From NCBI GenBank assembly GCA_017792345.1, contig CP051228.1:124001-188000 (forward strand): a stretch of DNA of 64,000 nucleotides, in the 5' to 3' direction. Both the position numbers and the translations under genes were made by a program. The notes beneath the pieces are model-generated. The model had not been told where the DNA came from, did not search any database, and was given only the letters and a program-made list of their open reading frames with translations. This DNA comes from Mesoflavibacter sp. GTDB lineage: Bacteria > Pseudomonadota > Alphaproteobacteria > UBA8366 > Aestuariispiraceae. Shown piece by piece: positions 23,411-37,913 of this stretch. Positions within the stretch are counted from its first letter, which is position 1. Each line of letters starts with the position of its first letter.

Positions 23411-26400
23411 ATGCGTATCGCGAGACGGTTCACCAATAAAAACGAGTCGCCCTATGCGGCGATCCAGTTCCGCAAGACCAATTCGGAAATCCGGAACCCG
23501 GACGGAACCGTCGTCTTCCAATTGAAGGATATCGAGATCCCTTCGAATTACAGCCAGGTTGCGGGCGACGTCCTGGCCCAGAAGTATTTCCGCAAGGCCG
23601 GCGTCCCCGCCGCGACCAAGCCGGTCAAGGAAAAGGACGTTCCGGAATTCCTGTGGCGCCGCGTCCCCGATGAGGGCGCGCTCGACAAACTGCCCGAAGA
23701 CACGCGTTACGGCAGCGAGACCAGGGCGACGCAAGTTTTCGATCGTCTGGCCGGCACCTGGACCTATTGGGGCTGGAAGGGCGGCTATTTCGATGCCGAA
23801 GAGGATGCCCAAGCCTATTTCGACGAAATGCGCTTCATGCTGGCGCGCCAGATGGCCGCGCCGAACAGCCCGCAATGGTTCAATACCGGCTTGCATTGGG
23901 CCTATGGCATCGACGGGCCGAGCCAGGGCCATCACTATGTCGACTATAAGACCGGCAAGCTGGTCCGGTCCAAATCGGCCTATGAACATCCGCAGCCCCA
24001 TGCCTGTTTCATCCAGTCCGTCGACGACGATCTGGTGAATGACAACGGCATCATGGACCTCTGGGTCCGCGAGGCGCGCCTGTTCAAATATGGCAGCGGC
24101 ACCGGCACCAATTTCTCGCGCATTCGCGGCGCCAACGAACCGTTGGCGGGCGGCGGCAAGTCCTCCGGCCTGATGAGCTTCCTGAAGATCGGCGACAAGG
24201 CCGCGGGCGCAATCAAGTCCGGCGGCACGACGCGCCGGGCGGCCAAGATGGTCGTCGTCGATATCGATCACCCCGACATTGAGAAATTCGTCGACTGGAA
24301 GGTGATCGAGGAGCAGAAGGTCGCCGCCCTGGTCGCCGGATCGAAACTGCACGCCCAGCATCTGAACGCGATCATGCAGGCCTGTAACGAGGGCCGCCTA
24401 GACGATGGCGCGGTACTGACCGGGGACGCCCGCTTCGATCCGAAGCGCAACCGCACCCTGAAGGCCGAGATCCGCGCCGCGCGCCGCGCCCAGATCCCCG
24501 AAAACTATGTCCAACGCGTCATCCAATTCGCGCGTCAGGGCTATACCGGTATCGAGTTCCCGACCTATGACACGGACTGGGATTCGGAGGCCTACAGCAC
24601 CGTTTCCGGTCAGAACGCCAACAATTCCGTCCGTGTGACCGACGATTTCCTGCGCGCGGTCGAAACCGGCGGCGATTGGAAGCTGACCAACCGGACCGAT
24701 GGCAAGACGGCCAAGACGATCAAGGCGGCGGATCTTTGGGAAAAGATCGGTCACGCGGCCTGGGCCAGCGCCGACCCCGGTATCCAATACGACACGACCA
24801 TCAACGACTGGCACACCTGCACGAATTCCGGCCGGATCAACGCGTCGAACCCGTGTTCGGAATACATGTTCCTGGACGACACGGCATGCAATCTGGCCTC
24901 GCTGAACCTGATGCAGTTCCGGCGACCGGATCGCGGTTTCGACATCGAAGGCTTCAGCCACGCCGTTCGCCTGTGGACCGTGACGCTGGAAATCTCCGTC
25001 CTGATGGCGCAGTTCCCGTCCAAGTCCATTGCGGAGCTGTCCTACAAATACCGCACGCTGGGCCTGGGCTTTGCCAATATCGGCGGTCTGCTGATGGCGG
25101 CCGGCCTGTCTTATGACAGCGATGAGGGCCGGGCGATCTGCGGCGCGATTTCCGCCCTGATGACCGGCGTCTCCTACGAGACCTCCGCCGAGATGGCTGC
25201 CGAGCTTGGCGCCTTCCCCGGTTACGAGGAAAATCGCGACGCCATGCTGCGCGTCATGCGCAACCACCGCGTTGCTGCCCATGGCTGGGGCGACGGCTAT
25301 GACGGGCTGGCCGTGACGCCGGTGCCTCTGGATGTGCCGAACTGCCCGGACGAAGTTCTGGCGAAGGCCGCCGCCGATGCCTGGGACCGCGCCGTGAAAG
25401 CGGGTGAACAGCATGGCTACCGCAATGCCCAGGCCACTGTCATCGCGCCCACCGGCACGATCGGTCTGGTCATGGATTGCGATACGACGGGGATCGAGCC
25501 GGACTTCGCGCTGGTGAAATTCAAGAAGCTGGCCGGTGGCGGCTATTTCAAGATCATCAACCGCACCGTACCGGAAGCCCTGAAAACTCTGGGCTACAGC
25601 GAACGGGAAATCGGTGAGATCGAACGGTATGCCGTCGGGCACGGCACCCTGGCCGGCGCGCCGGGCGTCAACCATGACAGCCTGATGGCCAAAGGGTTCG
25701 GCCCGGAGGAAATCGCCAAGCTGGAATCCGCCTTGGGCAATGCCTTCGACATCAAGTTCGTGTTCAACAAGTGGACGTTGGGCGAAGCCTTCTGCACCGA
25801 CATGCTGGGCTTCGACGCCGACGATCTGAACAACATGAGCTTCGACATGCTGGCCGAGCTGGGTTTCGAGCGGCATGAGATCGAGGCCGCGAACACCTAT
25901 TGCTGCGGGGCGATGACCCTGGAAGGTGCACCCCATCTGCGCAGCACCGATCTGCCGGTCTTCGACTGCGCCAATCCCTGCGGCAAGAAAGGCACCCGCT
26001 TCCTGACCGCGGAAAGCCATATCCGCATGATGGCGGCGGCGCAGCCCTTCATCAGCGGCGCCATTTCCAAGACGATCAACATGCCGAATTCGGCCAGCGT
26101 CGAGGATTGCAAGGCGGCCTATATCCTGAGTTGGAAGCTGGGCCTGAAAGCCAATGCGCTCTATCGCGACGGCTCCAAGCTGTCCCAGCCGCTGGCCTCC
26201 AGCCTGCTGGACGACGACGACCTGCAGGACGATCTGGCCGACGCGACACCGGCCGAAGCCATTCCGATGGTCGCGGAGCGGATCGTCGAACGCATTATCG
26301 AGAAACGCGCCGACCGCAAGAAACTGCCGCATCGTCGCAAGGGCTATACCCAGAAGGCGATCGTCGGCGGCCACAAGGTCTATCTGCGCACCGGCGAGTA

Positions 26401-27118
26401 CGAAGACGGCAGCCTGGGCGAATTGTTCATCGATATGCACAAGGAAGGCGCCGCCTTCCGCTCGCTGATGAACAATTTCGCCATCGCCGTCTCCATCGGC
26501 CTGCAGTACGGCGTGCCGCTGGAAGAATATGTGGAGGCCTATACCTTCACGCGCTTTGAACCGTCGGGGATGGTCGAGGGCAACGAGGCGATCAAGATGG
26601 CGACCTCGATCCTGGACTATATCTTCCGCGAAGTGGCGATCAGCTATCTGGGCCGCGACGACCTGGCCCATGTGCAGCCCGAAGACATGCTGCCGGACAC
26701 GACTGGCGGCGGTGACAAGGAAAGCGAACTGGCGGAAGAGACCGCCCAGGCCATTCAGGCGATCCAACGGATCACCAGCCGGGGCTTCGTCCGCAAGTCG
26801 GACCTGACCGCCTATACCAGCGTCGTGACCCAGTTGGGCGGCGGAGGCGCCGCCGGCAGCATGACCAATTCCGCGCCTACCGCGTCTCGCGGCGGTGCGG
26901 GCACACAGTTTGTGGAGACCGGGGCGGTCGGCGACACCGCCGTCCAGGTCGGCGAAGCGGTGCGCGAACAAGTGGACGGCCGTCTGGAACGGATCCGCGA
27001 AGCGCGCGCCAAAGGGTATGAGGGCGATCCCTGCGGTGACTGCGGGAACATGACCCTCGTGCGGAACGGCACCTGCCTGAAATGCGTCACCTGTGGCGCC
27101 ACCAGCGGGTGTTCGTAA
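23411..27118 (+). CDS. nrdJ: Vitamin B12-dependent ribonucleotide reductase (class II)
   Basis: 1235 residues, full length for the alphaproteobacterial class II enzyme, no intein. It reduces ribonucleotides to deoxyribonucleotides using adenosylcobalamin to generate the thiyl radical, and needs no oxygen. Visible features: N-terminal [16 protein letters not shown], the active-site region [19 protein letters not shown] (Asn, Cys and Glu of the catalytic set), [27 protein letters not shown], and a cysteine-rich C-terminal tail ([22 protein letters not shown]) that passes electrons. The start is backed by AAGGGGG upstream. No other reductase lies in the window, so DNA synthesis here may depend on cobalamin. 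Confidence 0.97.
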
Positions 27119-36105: not shown

Positions 36106-36531
36106 CTACAGGAAATCTTCCAGTTCGAGGCCCAGCACGTCGCAGATGGCCTCGCACTGGGCGCGCTCGCTTTCCAGGAAAACGCCGTCGGCGCGGCTGA
36201 TCGCCAGGGCGACTTTGACCAAAAGTACGGCGTCCCCGGCCTCATGCCGCATTTCCTTGACCGCTTCCAGCGCGTGACGGCGGCCCTTGGCTTCGGCCTG
36301 GACAATGCCGTCGACATAGCCGTTGAACAAATCCACGGCCTCATGCACGTCGAAAAAGCGCAGTTTGTCGATGGCTTCCAGGATCTGGTCGACGCGCCCG
36401 CGTTCCGACAGGGAAACTTCGCCATCGGCAATCGCGACCAGGGCACAGCACGCCATGCACGCCTCTAGGAACGGCCGGTTCCTGCGCCGTGCCGTTCGCT
36501 CTTCGATTGCGTGCCGAACCCCCTCAAACAT
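36106..36531 (-). CDS. TerB-family protein
   Basis: 141 residues from the ATG at 36531, all-helical. EACMACCALVAIADGEVSLSERGRVDQIL is the first metal-site helix pair of TerB (split here for length: CALVAIADGEVSLSER) and VKVALAISRADGVFLESERAQ the second, both with acidic residues for metal binding. Originally described in tellurite resistance clusters; stand-alone copies have no settled role. Convergent with the PilZ gene 18 bases away. Confidence 0.8.
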   Translation of the reverse strand: MFEGVRHAIEERTARRRNRPFLEACMACCALVAIADGEVSLSERGRVDQILEAIDKLRFFDVHEAVDLFNGYVDGIVQAEAKGRRHALEAVKEMRHEAGDAVLLVKVALAISRADGVFLESERAQCEAICDVLGLELEDFL

Positions 36532-36682
36532 ACCGATCCCCCGACCAGGCGCCATCCCCGGATTGGCGCAGGCCGACAATGTGCCCTTGCCGCAGTGCAG
36601 CGGTCAAGTGACGGGTCTGCGCGCAAGCAGGTCGTTTTTTCCTTAGTCACCGCCCCGAATTACATTAGAGTGATGCCACTGA

Positions 36683-36876
36683 GAGAGCGGTTCCCCGCAA
36701 GGGGATCAAAAGGGAATTCGGTGTGGCGACGGACGCAATGTCCCGACCCGAGGCCGAAGCTGCCCCCGCAACTGTAAGCGGCGAGCCGACCGCCACGTCC
36801 AGGCCACTGACGGGATACCGTTGGGAAGGCCAGGCGGACCGGCACCGACCCGCGAGCCAGGAGACCTGCCGCTCAC
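36683..36876 (+). promoter_or_regulatory. Cobalamin riboswitch
   Basis: The conserved core is present in order: AAAAGGGAATTCGGTG, GCTGCCCCCGCAACTGTAAGC (the B12 box region at 36759-36779), CCACTG, GGGAAGGC and GAGCCAGGAGACCTGCC at its 3' end. The closing helix can form between GAGCGGT-like sequence near 36684 and the ACC..GCTC at the end. Downstream, a CCGGG/CCCGG hairpin (36896-36913) abuts the ribosome-binding site GGAGGAGG of the next gene, a plausible translational expression platform. The RNA faces the unknown 105-aa gene at 36926, so adenosyl- or other cobalamin should repress it. Confidence 0.96.
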
Positions 36877-36925
36877 TGAAACGCAACCCTATTGTCCGGG
36901 CGGGGTGTCCCGGGAGGAGGTTTCT

Positions 36926-37243
36926 ATGAGTAGTGTTCCGTCCGCATTTCCGGCTGCGGAAATCGATATTGCGGCGTTCGACCCTGGACAGAGCCTGTCC
37001 GCCCTTTACATGGCAGAAGAACCTTTGCCGCGCGGTGCGGCGGAAGGGGCAATTCTGTCCTGGCTCCTCGCCCTGCCCGATGGCACCGATCCGGCGCGGG
37101 CTGCCCAAATTCTCGGCGAAACGTCGCCTTTCTCCGATGCATCCGGCGGCGAAGCCGGCAAGGCGAGCGAGTTGCTGAGGCAGATCGCGCAGTTTCCGGC
37201 TGAACGTCTGGCCCGGCCGAGACGCCGGCGGGTCAGGAACTAG
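36926..37243 (+). CDS. Unknown small protein under cobalamin riboswitch control
   Basis: 105 residues. Start at ATG 36926 with a strong GGAGGAGG five bases upstream. No family recognised. The sequence is acidic in the middle and ends in a basic tail (RPRRRRVRN); no signal peptide, no membrane segment, no cysteine or histidine to bind metal. The stretch LPRGAAEGAILSWLLALPDG and AGKASELLRQIAQFPAERLA suggest helices. The gene is read directly from the riboswitch, and the neighbouring yciB gene starts 80 bases on. Being controlled by B12 and not resembling known transport or synthesis proteins, it may be a new cobalamin-linked factor. Codon use looks like that of its neighbours. Confidence 0.75.
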   Translation: MSSVPSAFPAAEIDIAAFDPGQSLSALYMAEEPLPRGAAEGAILSWLLALPDGTDPARAAQILGETSPFSDASGGEAGKASELLRQIAQFPAERLARPRRRRVRN

Positions 37244-37322
37244 AACGTTCCATCGGCATTCAGGGACCGGTGGCGTGAAGGAACGGATGACGCGGCCAAC
37301 CGCATCGCCTATATAGCCTCCT

Positions 37323-37913
37323 ATGACGGATGTTCCTTCCCGCCCCGGTCCTCCCTGGCTGACCCAACTGGTCGATTTCGCGCCGCTGGCAGCCTTTGTC
37401 GTCACCTACTTCCTCAGTAACGATCTGTTCCTGGCAACGAAGGTCGTGATGGGCGCCAGCGCGGCGGCCGTCGTGCTGTCGCTGGTGGTTGCCCGTCGGA
37501 TTCCGTGGATGCCGCTATTGACGGCCGTCCTGGTCGGGGTATTCGGCGGTTTGACGCTCTATCTGAACGATCCCAGCTTCATCAAGATGAAGCCCAGCAT
37601 CATCAATACGCTGTTCGGGATCGGCCTGCTGGCGGCCCTGGCTTTCGGCAAGATGCCGCTGCGATCGGTCATGGGCGGCAGTTTCACCATGCCGGACCGT
37701 GCCTGGAAGGTGCTGACGCTGCGTTGCGCCATCTTCTTCCTGTGTCTCGCCCTGCTGAACGAGATCGTCTGGCGCAGCGTATCGGAAGAGATTTGGGTCT
37801 ATTTCCGGTTTCCCGGTCTGATCGCGATCACCTTCCTGTTCTTCATCGCCCAGGTGCCCTTCATGATGCGGCACAGCGAAACCGACACGGCGGAAGAAGC
37901 CGGAGATCAGTAA
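37323..37913 (+). CDS. yciB: Inner membrane-spanning protein YciB (septation protein A family)
   Basis: 196 residues with five to six hydrophobic segments. Family signatures: LVDFAPLAAFVVTYFLSNDLF near the N-terminus (given here in part as LVDFAPLAAFVVTYF), NDPSFIKMKPSIINTLFG in the middle and LLNEIVWRSVSEEIWVYFR towards the end. Inner-membrane protein linked to envelope synthesis and septation. Its stop overlaps the convergent NUDIX gene by seven bases. Confidence 0.93.
   Translation: MTDVPSRPGPPWLTQLVDFAPLAAFVVTYFLSNDLFLATKVVMGASAAAVVLSLVVARRIPWMPLLTAVLVGVFGGLTLYLNDPSFIKMKPSIINTLFGIGLLAALAFGKMPLRSVMGGSFTMPDRAWKVLTLRCAIFFLCLALLNEIVWRSVSEEIWVYFRFPGLIAITFLFFIAQVPFMMRHSETDTAEEAGDQ

Follow-up and report, generated by a model that had tools for sequence, protein, structure and literature searches.

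A cobalamin riboswitch upstream of a nameless family of small alphaproteobacterial proteins

In one comparative survey, the genes behind cobalamin riboswitches were assigned to four categories, namely those for B12 biosynthesis, for the transport of B12 or its precursors, for cobalt transport and for isozymes of B12-dependent enzymes (PMC3766115). For this riboswitch class, a kissing loop between L5 and L13 has been described (PMC9600662). In Mycobacterium tuberculosis, the uORF uPPE2 relays the signal of a B12 riboswitch to ppe2; it is partially conserved and overlaps ppe2 by AUGA (PMC11260477).

We analysed a 64,000-nucleotide stretch of contig CP051228.1 from Mesoflavibacter sp. (GCA_017792345.1), hereafter the window, in which a cobalamin riboswitch precedes the gene for a 105-residue protein, P0001. 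Like uPPE2, P0001 is the product of a small ORF that immediately follows a B12 riboswitch, in this case probably also of the OFF type. Unlike uPPE2 as described in PMC11260477, the P0001 family is spread over several families of alphaproteobacteria and shows purifying selection, and its window member has no overlap with the gene that follows. Both the window gene and the protein family it represents fall outside the four categories of PMC3766115. A family that recurs behind cobalamin riboswitches while lying outside these categories would add a new output to the B12 response, and would concern B12-dependent alphaproteobacteria such as the one studied here, which has NrdJ and gave no MetE match.

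The riboswitch and its expression platform

The RF00174 aptamer was located by cmscan at 36671..36887 on the forward strand, with the complete model (1-189) matched at 115.9 bits (E 2.4e-28) against an Rfam gathering threshold of 31.5 bits. It starts 12 bases ahead of the coordinate given in a preliminary description (36683), whose claim of a core cobalamin riboswitch leading into a gene with a ribosome-binding site is confirmed by this score and by a Shine-Dalgarno sequence, GGAGGAGG, at 36913..36920, followed by the ATG at 36926. The B12 box AGCCAGGAGACCTGCC was found as an exact match at 36855..36870. Motif searches further identified, on the same strand, an L5 stretch GCTGCCCCCGCAACTGTAA from 36759 and an L13-type stretch GGGCGGGGTG from 36898. 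Within these, the L5 segment CCCCGC (36764..36769) and the loop segment GCGGGG (36900..36905) are complementary in sequence, as would be expected if L5 and L13 form the kissing loop (PMC9600662). The window contains a single copy of the motif CCGGGCGGGGTG, compared with 0.03 expected. With its full-length match, its B12 box, its complementary L5 and L13 and a Shine-Dalgarno at the base of P13, the window leader resembles translational RF00174 riboswitches that use the kissing loop, and within its class it is unremarkable.

The expression-platform hairpin P13/L13, CCGGG-CGGGGTGT-CCCGG, was placed at 36896..36913 (forward strand) by an alignment of 23 leaders that we chose from 43 listed. Its last base is the first base of the Shine-Dalgarno, and the 3' end of P13 meets the Shine-Dalgarno in the aligned leaders (n = 23). 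The five P13 pairs are formed in 90.4% of the alignment cells. The covariation score of 0.280 exceeds both the shuffled value of 0.115 (none of 500 shuffles equalled it) and six slid versions of the hairpin, with the proviso that kinship among sequences can beat such shuffles even without structure. Three of the five pairs changed on both sides, a value reached by 11 of the 500 shuffles. The loop motif, GCGGG followed by G or C, is present in 37 of the 43 leaders and was not found in the other six. ViennaRNA run without pseudoknots did not return the proposed P13 hairpin from either the local stretch or the full leader: in the former it gave a hairpin in a different register with part of the Shine-Dalgarno paired, and in the full window leader the P13 and Shine-Dalgarno bases pair elsewhere.

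This leader is best read as a translational B12-OFF switch, because the hairpin that carries the L13-type loop shows covariation and directly adjoins the Shine-Dalgarno. When adenosylcobalamin is sufficient, the aptamer would fold and L5 (CCCCGC) would kiss L13 (GCGGGG); this contact would hold P13 against the Shine-Dalgarno, so that the 105-residue protein is not made. When cobalamin is low, the ribosome-binding site would open and the protein would be produced. We regard this regulatory part of the reading as very probable.

No sigma-70-type promoter was found in 36450-37500. A terminator-like stem lies upstream of the aptamer at 36614-36633 on the forward strand, one of two such stems found in all, compared with 0.8 expected. 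A TerB-domain gene (36106-36579, reverse strand) is transcribed away from the riboswitch, and what appears by eye to be a similar TerB-type gene adjoins the small gene in G003 and G007.

P0001 and its family

The ORF of P0001 runs from the ATG at 36926 to the TAG at 37243 (36926..37243, forward strand) and is a real protein gene under protein-level selection. Its product is 80% identical to that of the congener G003, with a dN/dS of 0.082 (at a dS of 1.53, hence near saturation) and with 20, 7 and 54 differences at the first, second and third codon positions, respectively. Shifted frames of the same ORF pair gave dN/dS values of 1.55 and 5.58. A second species pair within the genus gave 0.109.

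Searches of P0001 against Pfam and NCBIfam returned no family even at E values up to 10, in agreement with the preliminary description of a product unlike known B12 families. PHROGs and PADLOC likewise gave no family match, and no sequence match was found to a curated cobalamin-regulon family for synthesis, transport or isozymes. Among ten members of the A1 alignment, Pfam gave no match and NCBIfam a single weak one for one member (Frankia-40 domain, E 0.046); 10 further members gave matches in Pfam and NCBIfam below curated cut-offs only. One relative without a riboswitch showed similarity to LcrG (E 0.0065 and 0.0021), which is below the cut-off and not common to the other members scanned. 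A literature search found no title or abstract describing the family, most subscription papers being outside its reach. The family is thus nameless in the libraries searched, and it is alphaproteobacterial.

P0001 contains neither Cys nor His, as expected from the earlier remark that metal-binding residues are absent, and no signal or membrane segment is apparent by eye, the model containing short helices only. AlphaFold2 places these helices at residues 20-29, 38-49, 56-64, 75-88 and 92-96, with modest confidence (pLDDT 68.8, pTM 0.58, six sequences in the input). Foldseek and VIA-align gave no telling PDB match for the predicted helical fold, and a sequence-profile search of the PDB gave a single match at E 0.94. 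The basic tail noted previously in P0001 holds for most of the family: a net charge of at least +4 over the C-terminal 15 residues was found for 56 of 66 members, compared with 13 of 174 ORFs of at least 150 residues called by our own script. It does not extend to the remaining ten members, where the tail is weak or absent (below +4); seven of these belong to the family labelled f134, in which the gene usually lies beside CobW.

With overlaps removed, the family was found in 86 genomes, including that of the window. A single-sequence search (E <= 0.01) gave matches in 15 of 59 genomes, of which 10 were kept, all with RF00174 directly upstream. The five dropped matches (L015, L016, L018, L019 and L020; E 0.003 to 0.01) have no riboswitch alongside, and three of them resemble, by eye, the reverse strand of an actin-like gene. 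Their genomes were not returned by the profile at E <= 0.01 (G022, G034 and G011) or E <= 0.001 (G043 and G046). The profile search identified 12 of 43 genomes in the order of the window (E <= 0.01) and, at E <= 0.001, 21 of 385 in a sample of the class, 49 of 61 from G374's order and 13 of 31 from that of G273, some matches being weak (near 4e-5 in G430 and G431; 4e-5 in G489). All carriers except G445 have a single match per genome. A tblastn search of plasmids with one relative as query gave no match.

Riboswitch linkage and gene neighbourhood

An RF00174 match over the gathering score lies directly upstream of the small gene in 43 of the 86 carriers and is absent in 40. One carrier, G445, is ambiguous: its main match has no riboswitch, and a weak second match (L176) has RF00174 upstream with a gap and frame that look wrong. 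Two (G435 and G450) are untestable, having only 4 and 111 bases of contig ahead of the match. Presence and absence were checked by cmscan or genome search, as the motif search alone misses G478, which the covariance model finds. The linkage spans six of the tool's family labels (f1, f2, f41, f134, f158 and f182). It holds for all 12 carriers in the window's order, 4/4 in f41, 12/13 in the order of G273 and 15/49 in the order of G374, and for none of eight comprising the four f26 genomes with G113, G128, G240 and G366. At least one RF00174 match occurs somewhere in 70 of the 76 genomes scanned. No other Rfam family was reported directly before the small gene in the loci scanned.

The riboswitch label is clustered on a tree of 66 members (40 with and 26 without a riboswitch, labelled by motif), requiring 5 changes compared with 20.5 in shuffles; the resolution of this tree is poor, and neither one gain nor one loss can be read from it. 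A comparison of 17 family loci in the order of G374 placed the same methyltransferase gene next to the small gene in 11, both with a riboswitch (G374, G456 and G479) and without (for example G469 and G440). Because this position is common to carriers of either kind, the two forms appear, judging by gene order, to be positional orthologues. With 40 of 86 carriers devoid of an upstream riboswitch, the protein can therefore work outside riboswitch control.

Several arrangements were observed in passing. In the four f41 genomes (L038, L039, L040 and L042) the riboswitch and a serC leader (RF00517) on the opposite strand are arranged back to back. G478 has a second cobalamin riboswitch (L157:9346-9554, reverse strand) about 4 kb from that of the small gene. 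In G021 (L032 / L144:11185-11586, reverse strand) a 25-codon ORF starts at the ATG behind the riboswitch and stops just short of the family ORF, for which GTG would be the start codon.

In f134, a CobW gene (TIGR02475, over cut-off) is the next same-strand gene in 11 of 13 carriers (G273, G482, G489, G490, G493, G494, G495, G496, G505, G506 and G507, not G483 or G484), with 8-64 bases between the profile matches. The small gene and CobW have a riboswitch in common in 10 of these 11 pairs, G493 having none. In G021 the small gene is followed by metE (1123 bits). In the four f26 genomes it lies directly behind glnE. The next gene in the window encodes septation protein A (IspZ; best NCBIfam match 192.6 bits, cut-off 196). 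Within the genus the sequence downstream of the small gene differs, being another sequence in G001 and a manganese riboswitch (RF00080) in the congeners G002, G004 and G005 (L008:1297-1455, L009:1851-2014 and L010:1822-1981).

A role in the low-cobalamin response

The linkage to the riboswitch, to CobW and to metE points to a low-cobalamin response. Our overall reading, to which we give about an even chance, combines the translational cobalamin OFF switch, ahead of a single small gene, with a product that acts as a small adaptor or regulator in this response; its functional part, taken separately, is put at somewhat less than even. The product would be a soluble bundle of helices whose N-terminus is flexible and whose tail is usually rich in arginine, most likely a binding protein rather than an enzyme or a transporter. 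A small binding protein, whether adaptor or regulator, would fit the size, the predicted fold and the charge, and the regulator, chaperone or adapter role suggested in the preliminary description is compatible with the sequence data. We infer the direction of control, the kissing loop and the whole molecular role of the protein. More tentatively, P0001 may represent a class of cobalamin-scarcity effector that has gone unrecognised, a small adaptor of helical fold found in several alphaproteobacterial orders under B12 riboswitch control, that redirects the supply of B12 or the enzymes that depend on it (CobW, methionine synthase, ribonucleotide reductase) without itself being an enzyme, a transporter or a replacement isozyme.

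A shortage of cobalamin should be of consequence to this organism, since its genome gave no MetE match and has NrdJ, the B12-dependent enzyme that the preliminary description had already noted; it is encoded in the window at 23411-27118 (NF005736, 2194.9 bits, cut-off 1737). A general link of the family to MetE was considered and failed, as only 6 of 80 genomes have a MetE match over cut-off, including four carriers (G021, G428, G429 and G484). B12-binding domains were found in all 51 genomes examined, non-carriers included, and do not discriminate.

The CobW linkage could also mean that the protein is an accessory factor for cobalt insertion, helping the CobW GTPase to deliver cobalt to the cobaltochelatase at low cobalamin. 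The f134 pairs with their common riboswitch argue for this, and the window genome has both CobN (1646 bits) and CobW (518 bits). However, CobN, CobW and the small gene are far apart there (1500233, 1332509 and 160926, respectively). P0001 itself, with no family match and no Cys or His, is unlike CobW. CobN is over cut-off in 69 of 80 genomes, and co-occurrence of the small gene with CobN and CobW is not obligate: G007 and G021, which have both the riboswitch and the small gene, show only lower-scoring CobN matches and no CobW over cut-off, and G200 and G427 carry the small gene with no CobN or CobW match whatsoever. Conversely, G008 and G011 have CobN and CobW without the small gene. The absences of CobN, CobW and MetE rest on genomes listed as 96-100% complete. 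Carriers without CobN and CobW over cut-off indicate a role that extends beyond B12 synthesis, and we consider the accessory-factor explanation unlikely.

The existence of carriers without a riboswitch speaks against limiting the role to B12 starvation. The protein might have a general housekeeping role, for instance in translation or nitrogen metabolism, and have been put under cobalamin control separately in several lineages as a sensor of slow growth. The single match per genome (except in G445) with or without a riboswitch, the methyltransferase neighbour in both kinds of carrier and the position behind glnE in f26 are in line with such a role. Recurrence of the riboswitch in six families, with no other Rfam family reported directly ahead of the gene, and the linkage to CobW and metE speak against it, and we give it a similarly low probability.

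By analogy with uPPE2, the ORF could be a regulatory uORF that, by being translated, passes the riboswitch signal on to the gene behind it, while its product is inert. The close, same-direction arrangement with CobW in f134 and with metE in G021 would allow this, but in the window IspZ starts 79 bases past the stop codon with no overlap, and the differing downstream content within the genus leaves no conserved dependent gene. Selection acts at the amino-acid level and the protein is kept in genomes without the riboswitch, and a regulatory uORF is thus very improbable. The fallback offered in the preliminary description, a short ORF without function ahead of a longer transcript, is contradicted by the dN/dS values, by conservation in 86 genomes with at least 40 carriers lacking a riboswitch in front, and by the changing downstream neighbour.

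Five cobalamin riboswitches were found in the 4.9 Mb genome. The other four precede genes for a DUF1636 protein, a GbcA-like Rieske oxygenase, a Peripla_BP_2 ABC binding protein and CbtA, the last with an intervening 63-codon ORF taken by eye for CbtB. These genes share both riboswitch family and genome with P0001, which matches none of their families. The DUF1636 protein (L145:12316-12879, reverse strand) and the Rieske oxygenase (L145:10654-11892, reverse strand; 512 bits, cut-off 670) lie behind separate riboswitches less than 1 kb apart, that of the oxygenase being G000:C1:948033-948239. GbcA is a glycine betaine monooxygenase, making the GbcA-like oxygenase an unusual riboswitch target that perhaps provides a B12-independent route for betaine demethylation.
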